Below, piece by piece: positions 29,289-35,722 of a stretch of 35,722 nucleotides of DNA (the stretch's first letter is position 1; every line of letters starts with the position of its first letter). Origin of the DNA: Clostridia bacterium (lineage in GTDB: Bacteria; Bacillota; Peptococcia; DRI-13; SV3-B141); contig JAHDSB010000058.1 of assembly GCA_018433015.1 (NCBI GenBank), positions 1 to 35,722 on the forward strand. The letters are read 5' to 3'. A program made the position numbers and the translations under genes. The notes beneath the pieces are model-generated. The model searched no databases. It saw nothing but the letters and a program-made list of their open reading frames with translations, and was not told the DNA's origin.

Positions 29289-30893
29289 TTAAAAGACAAT
29301 CAAACCTCTCTCGTCATACACTGAATCTCCGCTATTACCTGAGCCACAACGGATAGCACGATCAAGTGCCATGATGGTCGCTACCGCACCATCTATCTTT
29401 TCTGTACTTTTTTCCTTATCCGGTTTCACGTTACCTGCCGGATCAGTTTTTATAAAGATGTTGTCCATCATCCAACGAAGCACTGGATGCCCACCGTGGG
29501 CTATTCTTTCTTCTAATGTCAATTTCATTAGTTCTTTGGTTGGCGGTGACATATCTTTAAAGCCTTGACCGAATGGAACAACAGTAAAGCCTGCTCCTTC
29601 AAGGTTCTGAACCATTTGAACTGCTCCCCAACGGTCAAATGCAATTTCTCGAATGTTATACTTCTCGCCAAGTTCTTCAATAAACCGCTCAATGTAGCCG
29701 TAATGCACTACATTGCCTTCTGTGGTTAGAATATATCCCTGTTTCTCCCAAAGATCGTATTGTACATGGTCTCTTCGAACTCGGAGGTCAATGTTGTCCT
29801 CTGGCATCCAAAAATACGGAAGAACAATGTATTTATCTGTTTCATCCTCCGGTGGGAAAACTAGTACAAAGGCTGTAATATCTGTTGTAGAAGATAAGTC
29901 AAGACCTCCATAACACACCCGTCCTTCGAGACTTTCTGGTATAACTGGAAATGCACAGGCATCCCACTTTGCCATTGGCATCCATCGGACAGATTGTTTA
30001 ACCCACTGATTTAAGCGTAATTGCCGGAAGCTGTTCTCCTCAGCTGGGTTCTGCTTTGCACTTTCACAAGCAGCTCTTACCTTGTCAATTCCCACTGTAA
30101 TTCCCAAGCTTGGATTTGCCTTTTTCCACACTTTTGGGTCTGTCCAATCATCCTCTTCTTTAGCACCGTAGATTACAGGGTAAAACGTAGGATCGTATTT
30201 TCTGCCCTCAATAATATCAACCGCTTTCTGGTGTGTTTCGTAGCAGATACTCTGGGTATCCGTCCCCGCAGTGGTGATAAGAAAATATAGCGGTTGGGTC
30301 CTCGCATCCCCAGATCCTTTCGTCATAACGTCAAATAGTTTCCTATTTGGCTGAGTATGAAGTTCATCAAAAACAACACCATGTATATTGAAGCCGTGTT
30401 TGGAGTAGGCTTCAGCCGACAATACCTGATAGAAGCTGTTGGTCGGCAGGTACACCAATCGCTTAGTTGAAGCCAGCAACTTTACACGTTTATTTAGTGC
30501 CGGACACATCCGCACCATATCGGCTGCTACTTCAAATACAATTGATGCCTGCTGGCGGTCGGCAGCACAACCGTACACCTCCGCCCGTTCCTCCCCATCA
30601 CCGCAAGTGAGGAGAAGTGCAATTGCTGCGGCAAGCTCACTTTTTCCCATCTTTTTAGGTATTTCTACATAAGCAGTGTTAAACTGCCGATATCCATCTG
30701 GCTTTAAAATCCCGAATAGATCACGGATGATTTGCTCCTGCCAATCGATAAGTTCAAAAGGCTTACCTGCCCATAAACCTTTCGTATGGGAGAGTGCTTC
30801 GATAAAAGCCACAGCGTAATCAGCAGCATCCTTATCGTAATATGACCCATCAGCTATAAAGGCGGTCGGCTTATATTTCTTCAGTTTCCGCAT
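29289..30893 (-). CDS. Terminase large subunit (DNA packaging motor)
   Basis: A 534-aa packaging ATPase/nuclease, start MRKLKKYKPTAFIADGSYYDK. The ATPase domain has a Walker A-like PKKMGKSE (about residue 78) and Walker B GVVFDELH. The C-terminal RNaseH-like nuclease carries the acidic residues of YGGLDLSSTTDITAFVL, IAFDRWGAVQMVQN and EKIDGAVATIMALDRAI. It cuts concatemeric DNA and drives it into the prohead. No small terminase gene is present next to it; it may lie outside the window, beyond the IS insertion. A terminator-like hairpin stands just upstream. Confidence 0.96.
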   Translation of the reverse strand: MRKLKKYKPTAFIADGSYYDKDAADYAVAFIEALSHTKGLWAGKPFELIDWQEQIIRDLFGILKPDGYRQFNTAYVEIPKKMGKSELAAAIALLLTCGDGEERAEVYGCAADRQQASIVFEVAADMVRMCPALNKRVKLLASTKRLVYLPTNSFYQVLSAEAYSKHGFNIHGVVFDELHTQPNRKLFDVMTKGSGDARTQPLYFLITTAGTDTQSICYETHQKAVDIIEGRKYDPTFYPVIYGAKEEDDWTDPKVWKKANPSLGITVGIDKVRAACESAKQNPAEENSFRQLRLNQWVKQSVRWMPMAKWDACAFPVIPESLEGRVCYGGLDLSSTTDITAFVLVFPPEDETDKYIVLPYFWMPEDNIDLRVRRDHVQYDLWEKQGYILTTEGNVVHYGYIERFIEELGEKYNIREIAFDRWGAVQMVQNLEGAGFTVVPFGQGFKDMSPPTKELMKLTLEERIAHGGHPVLRWMMDNIFIKTDPAGNVKPDKEKSTEKIDGAVATIMALDRAIRCGSGNSGDSVYDERGLIVF

Positions 30894-30920
30894 AAACACC
30901 GCCCCTTTTATGAAAAAGGA

Positions 30921-30958
30921 CAAAAGAAAAGAGCTTCAATCCTATAGATAGAAGCCCT
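30921..30958 (-). terminator. Terminator hairpin immediately before the terminase gene
   Basis: The minus strand AGGGCTTC (30951-30958) pairs with GAAGCTCT (30930-30937) as an 8-bp stem with one G-T pair and a 13-base loop, followed by TTTTCTTTT. It stands 25 bases after the DUF5049 stop and only about 30 bases before the terminase ribosome binding site, so no promoter fits in between. Confidence 0.75.
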
Positions 30959-30982: not shown

Positions 30983-31171
30983 TTACTTATTTCCATCCAC
31001 TTCCCCTGTCATTATGAAATGAGCATATTCCGCTTTATGGTCTATTAAATAGACTACCAATTCATAAAACCCTCGTTCATTTGCTTCATACTGGACTCGG
31101 TTCACATCAAACATATTTGTGATTCCACTTTCACGGATGGAAAGGATTTGTTCCTTAATTATCTCATTCAT
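30983..31171 (-). CDS. DUF5049 small phage protein
   Basis: A 62-aa protein, start MNEIIKEQILSIRESGITNMFDVNRVQ, with GGAGGAGG upstream. The sequence (VQYEANERGFYELVVYLIDHKAEYAHFI) matches the DUF5049 family common beside terminase genes of Bacillota prophages. Its start lies inside the end of the upstream gene (8-base overlap). Function is unknown; the compact helical pattern could bind nucleic acid or the host transcription machinery, but nothing in the sequence settles it. Confidence 0.7.
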   Translation of the reverse strand: MNEIIKEQILSIRESGITNMFDVNRVQYEANERGFYELVVYLIDHKAEYAHFIMTGEVDGNK

Positions 31172-31622
31172 TGATTGCCTCCTCCGATTCAGCTGAATCG
31201 GTTGTCGCTTTGCGCAGGATATCCACATCGAAGCCCGCACTCTTATAGCCTTCTAAAATGGTACTGTAATAATGACAGCTCGGTTGTCCAAGCGGTCTTC
31301 CGTCATTCATAATGTAGACCATCGCATTAACGGTTTTTCCGTTCAATTTCACTTTTACGGTTTCCTTGCGATAAAGGAAAGGCCATCCTTCGTAGCGATC
31401 AAGTGCCGCCTCATCAGCCGGTGTGATTTCCCACACCAACACGGGTACACTGTCTCCCTTAAAAGGCTCAATGGTTGCCACAGCGCCCGCGTGTGCCCCT
31501 CTAAATAACAAGCGGTGATCATTGATTTGGCTAGTTCCTACCACCTTCGCTGTGGGGCATCTGTTGGCCATTTGCTCCAGGTTAAGGTTGGAGCCATAGG
31601 CAAGATATAATTTACTATTCAT
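31164..31622 (-). CDS. Gamma-glutamylcyclotransferase-like (AIG2/GGCT) protein
   Basis: A 152-aa protein of the GGCT fold, start MNSKLYLAYGSNLNLEQMANRCP, where YGSNL is the hallmark substrate-binding loop. ALDRYEGWPFLYRKETVKV contains the likely catalytic Glu of the DxxEG segment. Family members release 5-oxoproline from gamma-glutamyl compounds. It is encoded right after an amidoligase, an association proposed to make and remove peptide or amine tags in phages and bacteria. The start at 31622 is preferred to 31628 because of spacing from GGAGG. Confidence 0.85.
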   Translation of the reverse strand: MNSKLYLAYGSNLNLEQMANRCPTAKVVGTSQINDHRLLFRGAHAGAVATIEPFKGDSVPVLVWEITPADEAALDRYEGWPFLYRKETVKVKLNGKTVNAMVYIMNDGRPLGQPSCHYYSTILEGYKSAGFDVDILRKATTDSAESEEAINE

Positions 31623-31660
31623 TGTCATCCTCCTTCTTAGCTTTGGGGTTTAAGGGCAGC

Positions 31661-32560
31661 TCAGGCTGCCCGAAACCGCCATGCAGCTGAACCCGAAAGT
31701 GCTGCGGTTAAATGTTCTCTGCAGTTTGCAAATTCGTCTCCAATGAAACCAATTCGGTTTAGGTAGGTTCTCATGGCGAATTTCTCGTTCTCCACCTGAG
31801 GTTTCTTTGCCGATGCACACTTTTGCGTTAAGGCTTGGTGGTTAATGGCGAGTGCTAGAACAATGTAGCTTCTTATCTTTCCAGCATGAAGCTCGCTGTT
31901 AAACCCTCGAAGTTCAACTGTATGGTTTCCAGTAAAAAAGCTGTGAAGGTTGAGGAAATGGTAGCGGCTATTGTGATAGTGGGCGCTTCTACTCTCACTG
32001 TAGCCTTCGTACCAAATGTCCTCAATTTCTCTCAAAGTTTTAGGCTTCTTGCGGTTCATTTTCTCAACCAAAATGCTGTCCATCTTTTTGCAGTAGTTCA
32101 TTCTCTGCGGTGCAATTTGAAGTGCTTTGTAAAATAAGTCGTTTTTGCTTGAGATGATATTTACAAAGTTTCGAATACTTCTTGGTGTATGCTTAGCACC
32201 GTCTAGATGAATGTGAATGCCGCAAGATGTATTTGTAAAGGCTCCGGCTTTGCGGAGCTTTCTCACCAGCTCCTGTAATGTTTCAATGTCCTCTTGGTAG
32301 GTAAGGATGGGGCTGACTAACTCGACGCTGTATTCTCTGCCAGCGGCGACCTTCCTTCCACCTTCTTTTCTTTGGCAGTGGATGCTCCCGTCACTCATAA
32401 ACTTCCAAACCCGACCGTCTGGTGCTGTTACCTTTTTCGTATCGTAATAGGTCCCGCCTTCAGCATAAGTGCCTTGTAGAAATTCAGTAACAACCTTTGC
32501 TGCTTTTTCCCTTGTGATTCCTGTGAACTCGATTTCGATTCCAAATTTTGCGTTTAACAT
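31661..32560 (-). CDS. Amidoligase-family protein
   Basis: A 299-aa glutamine-synthetase-fold amidoligase. Marker segments are FGIEIEFTGI (metal-binding Glu pair, residues 6-15), CGIHIHLDG (about 115) and TVELRGFNSELHAGKIRSYI (about 215-235, with Glu/Arg of the family active site). Enzymes of this family couple carboxylates to amines using ATP; here the target is unknown, possibly a phage or host protein. The last about 45 residues form a module shared with the unrecognised gene at 32919-33611. AAGGAGCG precedes the start. Confidence 0.85.
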   Translation of the reverse strand: MLNAKFGIEIEFTGITREKAAKVVTEFLQGTYAEGGTYYDTKKVTAPDGRVWKFMSDGSIHCQRKEGGRKVAAGREYSVELVSPILTYQEDIETLQELVRKLRKAGAFTNTSCGIHIHLDGAKHTPRSIRNFVNIISSKNDLFYKALQIAPQRMNYCKKMDSILVEKMNRKKPKTLREIEDIWYEGYSESRSAHYHNSRYHFLNLHSFFTGNHTVELRGFNSELHAGKIRSYIVLALAINHQALTQKCASAKKPQVENEKFAMRTYLNRIGFIGDEFANCREHLTAALSGSAAWRFRAA

Positions 32561-32591
32561 TTTTCTCGCTCCTTCTAAAGTGTGTGTGTCC

Positions 32592-32635
32592 TTTCGGCAT
32601 GTACATATATCACTCTAAAAGGCTTTTATAGCAAG
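32592..32635 (-). repeat. 44-bp promoter-like repeat, copy 1 (before the amidoligase)
   Basis: Shares 37 of 44 positions with the copy at 33631-33674, with an identical 21-base core (32601-32621). On the minus strand it contains a -35-like TTGCTA and extended -10 TGATATATG with about 19 bp between. It lies 32-75 bases before the amidoligase ATG. It may be a phage promoter with a shared operator. Confidence 0.65.
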
Positions 32636-32694
32636 GCAATTCCGCAATATAAATCTACATATTTGCTGCCATATTTGGCTCAAAATGTGTATGG

Positions 32695-32922
32695 TTACTC
32701 TTCGATTTTCTTGCATAAATCCTCACCAAAGGCCACTCCAAGGGAACCACCGGAATCCCAACTGACGTGAATCGTTCCGATGTCATCAACACTAGTAACC
32801 GTACCTTTAGCTCCGGGTTGAAGTTTTGTATATGGGTCGTTCATTCTAAGTAGCATGACACGGGTTCCTGGAGTGTAATAGCTTCTAAGTTGCTTTAACA
32901 TTTCTGGGTGAATGATATTCAT
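32695..32922 (-). CDS. DUF4314 protein
   Basis: A 75-aa protein, start MNIIHPEMLKQLRSYYTPGTRV. The body, with KGTVTSVDDIGTIHVSWDSGGSLGV, is a small SH3-like beta-barrel typical of DUF4314, a family frequent next to amidoligase genes in Bacillota phages. GGAGGTGAGT precedes it, and it overlaps the upstream gene by 4 bases (ATGA). Its function is not known. Confidence 0.8.
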   Translation of the reverse strand: MNIIHPEMLKQLRSYYTPGTRVMLLRMNDPYTKLQPGAKGTVTSVDDIGTIHVSWDSGGSLGVAFGEDLCKKIEE

Positions 32923-33611
32923 TGTTCACTCACCTCCTGCTTGGCTGCCCCGCTTTTGAAAGCAGAACTACCTGATAGCTTGGAGAGGAGAATCTTTCGT
33001 TCCGTTTTATATTCTGGGCCGATGAAGCCAAGCCTGAGAAGGAAGCAACGGAAATTGTACTTTTCATTCTCTACTGATTTCTCGGTGGAGTTGACGCGGG
33101 TCTGTTTTTTCGCCATTTCGCAAAGTGCTGTTATAAAATGGGTGTATGCCTTAACTTCTTCTGCTGAGCACTCACCTTGAAACCAAGGGAAGGCGACAAT
33201 TTCTTCAGTTACATTGATTGGAATGGAATCCGTATCAAGTGCTGTCTTTATAAGAGCTGCTTTACTCTCTACCAATCCTTTTAAGTTCTCAAGGGCTGTG
33301 TCGGTAAAATCTGCCCGTGGCATTTGAATTATCAGATTGATAGATTCTTCAGTTTCATTCGCTTCTGTTTTCTGAGATGGTGTACCAAATTCTTCTGAAA
33401 TTGGCTTTAAGTCGTGAAGTCCCAATAGATTACCAACCAGTTCAGAGTTATCTGGCCCACTGAGTACTCCGTTTTTGTCAATATTGTAGTCCGCCACCTC
33501 ATATGCAAATGTAGGCGCCCCGAGGTATTTAACAGGAACATTCAGTTCTTGGCTGATCGCGTTAACCAGTGCTTTTCTTTTTGGTCCTGTAACATTATAG
33601 TTAATCTTCAT
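32919..33611 (-). CDS. Unrecognised phage protein sharing a C-terminal module with the amidoligase
   Basis: A 230-aa protein that I cannot assign. Residues about 1-70 (KINYNVTGPKRKALVNAISQELNVPVKYLGAPTF) look like an alpha/beta domain for handling a ligand or peptide. A helical middle follows (ALENLKGLVESKAALIKTAL). The C-terminal about 50 residues read VENEKYNFRCFLLRLGFIG and then a LSGSSAF segment, clearly homologous to the end of the amidoligase two genes on. The start at 33611 has AAGGCGG upstream. Co-location with amidoligase and DUF4314 suggests they act together. Confidence 0.75.
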   Translation of the reverse strand: MKINYNVTGPKRKALVNAISQELNVPVKYLGAPTFAYEVADYNIDKNGVLSGPDNSELVGNLLGLHDLKPISEEFGTPSQKTEANETEESINLIIQMPRADFTDTALENLKGLVESKAALIKTALDTDSIPINVTEEIVAFPWFQGECSAEEVKAYTHFITALCEMAKKQTRVNSTEKSVENEKYNFRCFLLRLGFIGPEYKTERKILLSKLSGSSAFKSGAAKQEVSEQ

Positions 33612-33630
33612 TTTCATACCGCCTTTCTAT

Positions 33631-33674
33631 TTTCGGTACGTACATATATCACTCTAAAAGCTGTTAATATCAAG
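33631..33674 (-). repeat. 44-bp promoter-like repeat, copy 2 (before the 230-aa gene)
   Basis: Second copy of the element described before the amidoligase, on the same strand. It has -35-like TTGATA (33668-33673) and extended -10 TGATATATG. It lies about 20-63 bases before the start of the 230-aa gene. The gap 33612-33707 contains nothing else visible. Confidence 0.65.
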
Positions 33675-33707
33675 TCATTTAGAGTATCTTTCTGTAGAAA
33701 ATACTGT

Positions 33708-35588
33708 TTATTCATCGGCGGTATTTTGTGTAGATAACACAATGCCAGTCAACACAAAACAGACGCATGGGAGTGCTACACCATTGCCCCACATTTTGTA
33801 TTCGGCTGAATCTGAATGAGGATTGTTAAGCCATTTTATAATCTGCTTTCTTGTTTTTGGTCTACTGCTTTTACCTATGATTTTGCGGTGGGTTTCCCAA
33901 ACCTCCGTCCAGAATAAAATTTCATCTTCTGTAGGATTTTCCGTACCAAGATCATCACACCAATCATCGGGGAAGCCTTGCAATCTAGCACACTCGGTTG
34001 GTGTAAGCCTTCTGACGATATAGTCCGGTCCAACCAATCCGTTTTGATAACCTGGATTAGTTCCATTGATAAGTGCATTTGATGTACCATCCTGCCTATA
34101 GCATTGACTTTCAGCTTTCATCTGAGGGTAAAATGATGCTGGTTGTGCCACTGCTCCAGGTCCTTTTGCCGTGAGTGTGGGTTGCTGTTCTTTATCTATT
34201 GAAGGTTTATATAGCGCGTTCTTTCCTTGATTAAAGGCTGCCCGATCAATACCGTAAGAAGGCTGAGTTACTACAGGGGCATCCTTGTAATCTCTCGACA
34301 ATAAAGTTGGTGCTTTATCTTCTTCAACCTGTGCATAGGCTCCAGTAGTCATGGCATAGGCAATAGCATGACGATCAGTGGTATTCAGCGTAAAAGAAAC
34401 CTCTTCATCTATACCGCTACCTTGGGGACCGTTTTTATCCTCTCTTCCAATCATCGAGCCTTGCAAAGCAACAACTGCAATACCACCTTGATTACATCCT
34501 GGATTTCCTCCATTGGCATCAATGGTTCGAGAAGTATCCGCTTCATATATACCGCTATGTGGATTGCTTGACTGCATAGAATTACTTTTATCAGAACAGA
34601 TGCCATATGCGGTAGGCACAAAAACGGTCTGGTCATTATTGCATCCAAGAGTGGCGGACTTATCATCCTGTATCAATGCACCCTTACCGCCGCCTTCACA
34701 GCCAGAGCGGATTTTTAATGTTTTAGGTGTATTCATAATAAGGGGTACATTCCCACCGCCAGTCCCCATGCGAGAGGTCAGCGTCTGTACTTTATTATCC
34801 TCTGAGAATTTTACACGACTATCAGTTGGATGATTTTCAATGACAACAGCCGTTTGGTTATCTCCCATGTTTGCGCGAAGTGATCCACTTAAGTTTTCAT
34901 CTGTATGGCCACCAATGCGTGAAACAGCACCTGGTTCAAAGGACATTACTGTACCTGGAACAACACCTGCTCTGAGGGTAGGGGAGCGTTCTTCCTCATA
35001 ACCTACACTTCGGCTCTTGGCGCTGTGTTCGGTACAAAATCCACTTGACTGCATTACGCAAGGCTGATGTCCATGTTCCTCCGCCCGAAGTGTGGCGGTA
35101 ATATCCTCCGAAATAGACATCACTTTCTCGCCTTGGTCATTTAGGCAAGTTATGCTATCGCCTGTTTTTCCAGTGCTGTTTTTAGCATTTCCGGCAGTTC
35201 TTTTCCACGGGCTACCGCTCGGCGTAAAATCCCTTGACAAGCCTTTGGACTCAAATAGTATTTCTCCGGCACATTTGTCTGCAAAATCTGCGACAAGGTA
35301 GATTCTACGACGACGTTGGGGGACTCCGAAATATTGCGCATCGATAGTTCGGTAAGCCACGCTCCATCCGTCTCCCATATAGATGTCAGCGTATGGCCAT
35401 CGTCCTTTTTCAGGTAAAGGCACCGAAGTATTCGGTTCTTTGACACTGATGACCGTTTCGAGGACTGCTTTGAAGTCTTCTCCTTTATTCGACGAGAATG
35501 CACCGGGGACATTTTCCCAGACTGCGTACCTTGGATATTGTCCATTGGTCTTACACCTCATTTCCTTAATAATTCGGATTGCTGTATT
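33708..35588 (-). pseudogene. C5-cytosine DNA methyltransferase, N-terminus removed by IS insertion
   Basis: The open frame (which can run into the IS to 35660) holds the later conserved blocks of a phage C5-cytosine methyltransferase: ENVPGAF (motif VI), GVPQRRRRIYLVADF (motif VIII), RRLTPTECARLQGFPDDW (motif IX) and WGNGVALP (motif X). The S-adenosylmethionine motif I and the catalytic PCQ loop (motif IV) are missing, because the phage sequence begins abruptly at AIRIIKEMR, where the IS ends. It therefore cannot methylate DNA by itself. Between motifs VIII and IX is a very long variable region (about 400 residues) with many degenerate TLxA-type repeats, presumably target-recognition modules. 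Confidence 0.85.
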
Positions 35589-35722
35589 TGTCAACTGAAA
35601 GTTCCCCTGTATTATAGATGAAATTTCCCCTAGAGGAGTAAAAAAATTATTGTTCTTCAAGCCATCGTTTTGTTTCTTTTAGCCTGTAAGAATTTCCATT
35701 CATATTCACTATATATGATTTA
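35589..35722 (-). mobile_element. End of an IS21-family insertion sequence
   Basis: The phage homology stops at 35588 and foreign sequence begins with TGTCAACTGAAAGTTCCCC. That block and a second, GATGAAATTTCCCC, 17 bases further on are the nested terminal repeats typical of IS21-family ends (5'-TG). The istB 3' end follows. The element continues past the window edge, so its other end, any target duplication and istA are not visible. Confidence 0.75.
35647..35722 (-). CDS. istB: IstB-like transposition helper ATPase, C-terminal fragment
   Basis: The last 24 codons of a gene running in from the window edge: they end ...NMNGNSYRLKETKRWLEEQ and TAA (35647-35649). A terminal NGxSYRLK segment is characteristic of IstB, the AAA+ protein of IS21 elements. 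Only the C-terminus can be seen, so completeness is unknown. Confidence 0.7.
   Translation of the reverse strand, partial: KSYIVNMNGNSYRLKETKRWLEEQ

Follow-up and report, generated by a model that had tools for sequence, protein, structure and literature searches.

A common Bacillota prophage protein is very probably an old sister of a phage amidoligase that has lost its active site

Amidoligase_2 proteins (PF12224) belong to the glutamine synthetase / gamma-glutamyl-cysteine ligase superfamily and are COOH-NH2 ligases; their fold neighbours are YbdK, glutamine synthetase, Dop and PafA. The AdoMetDC prozyme of trypanosomatids is a catalytically dead paralogue that forms an obligate heterodimer. 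The protein described here, V, resembles the prozyme as an apparently dead paralogue beside a live enzyme family, represented by the amidoligase A, but differs in that V and A frequently occur separately. The closest described gene arrangement is that of Tn6164, in which Orf21 to Orf24 are V, an amidoligase, AIG2/GGCT and a terminase, in that order (PMC3485107). Orf21 is thus V, and the order is that of the locus studied here; the passage of that paper dealing with Orf21-24 makes no mention of homology between Orf21 and Orf22. In C. clostridioforme prophages, ORF pairs are assigned to the phrog_2443 amidoligase next to GGCT (PMC11318856), and by their order these pairs should be V and A. The phrog_2443 family, named 'amidoligase enzyme', already groups the two, but it extends the name of an enzyme to V, where the active site is absent, and leaves the relation between an enzyme and a sister pseudoenzyme unstated. 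GenBank names V, which is widespread in the phages of gut bacteria, 'virulence-related protein'.

We analyzed a window of 35,722 nucleotides, the whole of contig JAHDSB010000058.1 of a Clostridia bacterium (GCA_018433015.1). The features that concern us all lie on the minus strand:

29289..30923, minus strand: large terminase TerL, given as context; gene order conserved
31164..31628, minus strand: gamma-glutamyl(amine) cyclotransferase of the GGCT/AIG2-like kind (PF06094, 7.8e-14), an obligate companion gene of A
31661..32560, minus strand: A, an Amidoligase_2 protein of 299 aa (COOH-NH2 ligase, glutamine-synthetase superfamily) that carries a clade-specific C-terminal block (C-block)
31661..31795, minus strand: C-block of A, residues ~256-299, two helices plus LSGSAAWR, placed by alignment with V
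32592..32637, minus strand: copy, upstream of A, of the promoter-like box of V
32695..32922, minus strand: DUF4314 protein of 75 aa (Pfam PF14192, 7.4e-31)
32919..33617, minus strand: V, 'virulence-related protein' of 232 aa, a probable pseudo-amidoligase that lacks the presumed catalytic residues and two segments
32949..33075, minus strand: C-block of V, residues ~181-222, placed by alignment with A
33631..33676, minus strand: promoter-like box upstream of V, CTTG.TAT-N8-TTTAGAGTGATATATGTA

Both A and V terminate in VENEK(F/Y)...R.(Y/F)L.R.GFIG.E...R..L...LSGS.A, at the coordinates recorded in the initial annotation, which had rightly seen the block in the second protein but had taken that protein to be 230 residues long. 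This motif spans residues ~256-295 of A and ~182-221 of V. By BLASTP the two share 29/80 identities (36% over 80 residues, E 9e-13), in an alignment that starts about 35 residues upstream of the block as earlier noted, at F.[SG]E..A..[IV].[SA]Y. The block is not of low complexity, has hundreds of homologues, and is better conserved than any other feature of the two families. Its carriers are the sister families A and V only, and the ordinary amidoligases checked, which come from other genomes (L421-L424), do not have it. A single exception in the fetched loci, L357:3380-4111, reads from an unrelated N-terminus into an amidoligase gene of which only a truncated 3' end is left. We considered it as a further architecture and took it instead as a deletion scar, a broken remnant of A. 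Separately, tblastn with A in L106, L110 and L113 gave spans reaching about 375 bases beyond the gene; since the amidoligase ORF at L106:5377-6276 is of normal length (299 aa) and V ends just upstream, the extra span is probably the C-block of V.

The initial annotation had described this block as a module attached to unrelated N-terminal domains. A first hint of kinship beyond the C-terminus came from PHROGs, where both proteins match phrog_2443 over the same profile range. We gathered relatives of A and of V from viral contigs and built a separate profile for each. Aligned with hhalign, V 5-225 matches A 8-299 at 99.6%. When the last ~80 residues were cut from both, V 5-131 still aligned colinearly with A 8-151 (95.4%, E 1.8e-8, score 55.9), against scores of 18.6 for a reversed profile, at most 17.4 for 60 column shuffles and at most 23.3 for 60 unrelated families of the same phages. 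BLASTP of the N-terminal parts alone, 57 A against 104 V representatives, gave 1545 matches below 1e-3 that reached 80/104 V and 57/57 A, with none in the reversed-sequence control. The best of these (4.6e-26) was to the basal V of locus L296, whose central helix resembles that of A (V_L296 HNGVTLRNLVNIIASKEKLIFKALGI, A_L296 HNARTLRNLVNIMASKEDLIYRALEV). A scan of genome contigs with a basal V returned a single relative. On the window, Pfam finds Amidoligase_2 in A (PF12224, E 3.1e-78) and nothing significant in V, and the V proteins of L131 (24.1 bits) and L312 (23.5 bits) pass the Amidoligase_2 cut-off of 22 bits. Homology confined to a C-terminal block fused onto two different domains is therefore hardly credible: the similarity is indeed strongest in the block, and the window's own V and A show no pairwise BLASTP match upstream of V residue 146, but the N-terminal parts match by profile, by Pfam, and by BLAST through basal V (L296, L131, L312). 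Unless the null models are at fault, the comparisons with the block removed refute a C-terminal module on unrelated domains. V and A are homologous end to end and share ancestry over the Amidoligase_2 domain, so that the block is not a reused module.

Predicted structures are in agreement with this kinship but are insufficient by themselves. The AlphaFold2 model of A has pLDDT 92.1 and pTM 0.90, that of V pLDDT 88.3 and pTM 0.59. The order of elements in the V model, E H E E E E H E H H E H H H, is that of A minus the strands at A 63-82 and the helical stretch at ~151-209, in agreement with the sequence alignment. The C-block is modelled as a helix pair in both (H259-269 and H275-285 in A; H185-196 and H201-211 in V, where block pLDDT is 89-97). 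Foldseek places the A model closest to YbdK, glutamine synthetase and Dop in the PDB, with PafA also matched. Against a viral library, the top two matches of the V model are phage amidoligases (prob 0.99; E 4e-3 and 6e-3). Against the PDB, Foldseek with the V model returned nothing significant; pre-ribosomal proteins came first at TM ~0.25, and superfamily members (GS, GCL, PafA, Dop) appeared only at E 0.2-1. A sequence search for solved structures gave none for V or A.

V shares the fold order and ancestry of Amidoligase_2, but not its conserved polar residues. When 59 A and 108 V representatives were aligned jointly, seventeen residues proved conserved in A: E9, E11, D57, S59, E80, R100, H116, H118, C157, W183, H194, Y195, R199, H206, E216, R218 and H225. 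Sixteen are polar, Trp183 being the exception, and E9, E11, D57, E80, H116, H118, R199, E216 and R218 are invariant. Their conservation and the superfamily to which A belongs suggest that they are catalytic. Each A protein keeps 16-17 of them and each V protein 0-3. A second set of fifteen is common to both families, namely R17, N131, L142 (A numbering) and twelve positions in the C-block; 14-15 of these are kept in 56/59 A and 102/108 V. The window's V has 0/17 of the first set and 15/15 of the second. With a significant Pfam match and the full residue set, A looks like a working peptide-bond-forming enzyme. V lacks the active-site residues of Amidoligase_2 and, with no more than three of the seventeen in any of 108 sequences, is not filed as an amidoligase.

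Outgroup amidoligases (L421-L424) carry residues of the first kind and have no C-block. This pattern makes the C-block, a helix pair missing from the ordinary members checked, a shared derived feature of the A and V clade, and makes the missing active site of V a loss. With the tree rooted on these outgroups, all V fall into a single clade (SH-aLRT 100), and an AU test does not reject a monophyletic A (p 0.77). Estimates of dN/dS are mostly 0.12-0.19 for V, with 0.34 in one close pair, and 0.025-0.076 for A, indicating that V is maintained, more loosely than A. V is thus a homologue of an enzyme family that has lost the presumed catalytic residues and evolves as one clade under purifying selection, and we read it as a pseudoenzyme on these sequence grounds. 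Very probably V is an old, selected sister of A whose active site was lost, a dead enzyme probably put to another use. It is quite unlikely that V is instead a different enzyme, with the scaffold re-used for a new active site. Lys15, Tyr31 and Pro35 are conserved in V and absent from A, and most V have FPWF around residue 143, as such an enzyme might; apart from Lys15 and Tyr31, however, the residues conserved in V alone have aromatic or small side chains, with no acidic or His cluster among them.

The V and A genes are each preceded by a copy of the same box. The exact 18-mer of this box occurs at only two sites in the 3.75-Mb host genome, upstream of the window's V and A. Across loci, the box is found upstream of 164/225 V genes and 93/143 A genes, and before 0-1 of ~150 DUF4314, GGCT or TerL genes. 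A rigid 34-bp element, CTTGCTAT-N8-TTTAGAGTGATATATGTA, is present in Bacillota phages and other mobile elements (viral loci L438-L514). When viral contigs were scanned with a pattern that allowed spacers of 8-12, all 85 matches had a spacer of 8. Downstream were 28 V genes, 15 A genes and 31 others, the last mostly from a few small cargo families (DUF-like proteins) and serine recombinase. Because TTGCTA and GATATA in the box lie 17 bp apart, it is most simply read as a putative promoter whose spacer is conserved.

Gene order around V is conserved as MTase - V - DUF4314 - [A - GGCT] - p85 - TerL - portal. Counted over loci selected by similarity, and so descriptive only, V lies at most 5 kb upstream of TerL in 136/140 loci with room, DUF4314 adjoins V in 149/225 V loci, and GGCT lies within 1.5 kb of A in 160/162 cases; V occurs without A in 77/188 flanked loci and A without V in 24/140, with the C-block still conserved in each. 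The start of the DUF4314 gene overlaps the stop codon of V (ATGA). Among 348 genomes drawn from the phylum, too, V was present with no A in some and A with no V in others. The amidoligase-GGCT pair without V was seen in L284, L289, L290, L292 and L293. Three of these (L284, L289, L290) are Pfam-checked conjugative elements in which the pair is flanked by a TraG/VirB4-like ATPase on one side and an M23 or NlpC/P60-like peptidase on the other. The A-GGCT cassette is tight and optional, and also occurs in conjugative elements that lack V. At the MTase end of the order, the window encodes a C5-cytosine methyltransferase with a large repetitive insert (33708-35660, minus strand); motif matches cover about 200 residues at either end of the protein. 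The start of the gene is either not intact or past the contig end; relatives are, for example, 721 aa long (L006).

An arrangement of this kind might suggest that V activates or inhibits A in a heteromer, as the trypanosome prozyme would lead one to expect. The two are homologous and adjacent and share the box, and in loci with packaging genes 87/99 A genes have V in the locus as well. We find this rather unlikely. An obligate activator of the prozyme type would always accompany a live enzyme, and the loci with V alone or A alone, conjugative elements included, do not fit. Nor does co-divergence: the distance-matrix correlation is 0.835 for A and GGCT, and for V and A it is 0.49 (Spearman), not above the 0.50 of V and GGCT, so no specific coupling of V to A is seen. 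An obligate V-A partnership is therefore supported neither by occurrence nor by co-divergence.

The initial annotation had also proposed that the block could be a tag, or a substrate site for the ligase itself. That it is present in both proteins, and that V frequently ends in Glu or Gln, recalling Pup, would be in keeping with such a peptide. However, the block is a predicted folded helix pair inside the fold, A itself carries it, and it is retained in the V of phages that have no A. The terminal bias is weak: Glu ends 43% of V, against 35% of p85, 27% of DUF4314 and 23% of GGCT proteins, and the 55% of V ends that are Glu or Gln are confounded by the overlapping ATGA start codon, which partly sets the residue, on a V body that is folded in the model. 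A Pup-like C-terminal Glu/Gln tag on V accordingly seems unlikely to us, and we consider modification of the block by the ligase very improbable. As A-GGCT is optional and occurs without V, and V often occurs without A, neither an obligate V-A complex nor a substrate tag is likely. The block might, as was further suggested, direct both proteins to one partner, given how well both families keep it and that the ordinary amidoligases checked lack it; its conservation could also be purely structural.

Returning to V as a pseudoenzyme, we propose that the common ancestor of A and V was a single Amidoligase_2 enzyme that already had the C-terminal helix pair. On the V branch, the active-site strands (A ~60-86) and the helical substrate segment (~151-204) would have been lost in one event or a series of them. 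All catalytic-looking residues would have gone, and what was left of the sheet, together with the paired helices and the C-block, would have been retained, leaving what we infer to be a binding protein. The elements common to A and V would then represent a docking surface rather than catalysis, and our best guess from the sequences is that V binds one common partner through this retained surface. Such a partner might be a target protein, a peptide or a nucleic acid, on which A would act and which V would bind without acting; because V and A are often apart, it is more likely a third molecule than either of the two. From their families, A is expected to ligate an amine to a carboxylate and the gamma-glutamyl(amine) cyclotransferase to release it, so that A-GGCT would be an optional cassette for gamma-glutamyl modification, which is probably reversible. 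V and A may be switched on together, each from its own copy of the promoter-like box, and V, paired with DUF4314, would belong regularly to the packaging region of the phage. The peptidoglycan peptidases beside A-GGCT in conjugative elements point to the cell wall, as a hint and no more. Put in full, the proposal is that Arg17, Asn131 and the C-block form the docking surface, that A and GGCT modify the partner reversibly, and that V is a dead competitor or reader, under one promoter class shared with mobile-element cargo; we offer this version tentatively, as possible but somewhat doubtful. If it holds, the partner might be encoded by phage or host, a view we put forward with equal reserve, and most of these phages keep V even without the ligase.

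Taken together, our results suggest that a very common prophage gene of Bacillota encodes neither a 'virulence-related protein' nor an 'amidoligase enzyme', but a fold that has outlived its active site. Reading V in this way would correct annotation pipelines that draw on phrog_2443 and drop a spurious virulence label. It also raises the question of what the fifteen residues common to a live and a dead family hold on to. Since the C-block marks only the clade of A and V, the binding target of V could reveal the target of the whole amidoligase-GGCT system.
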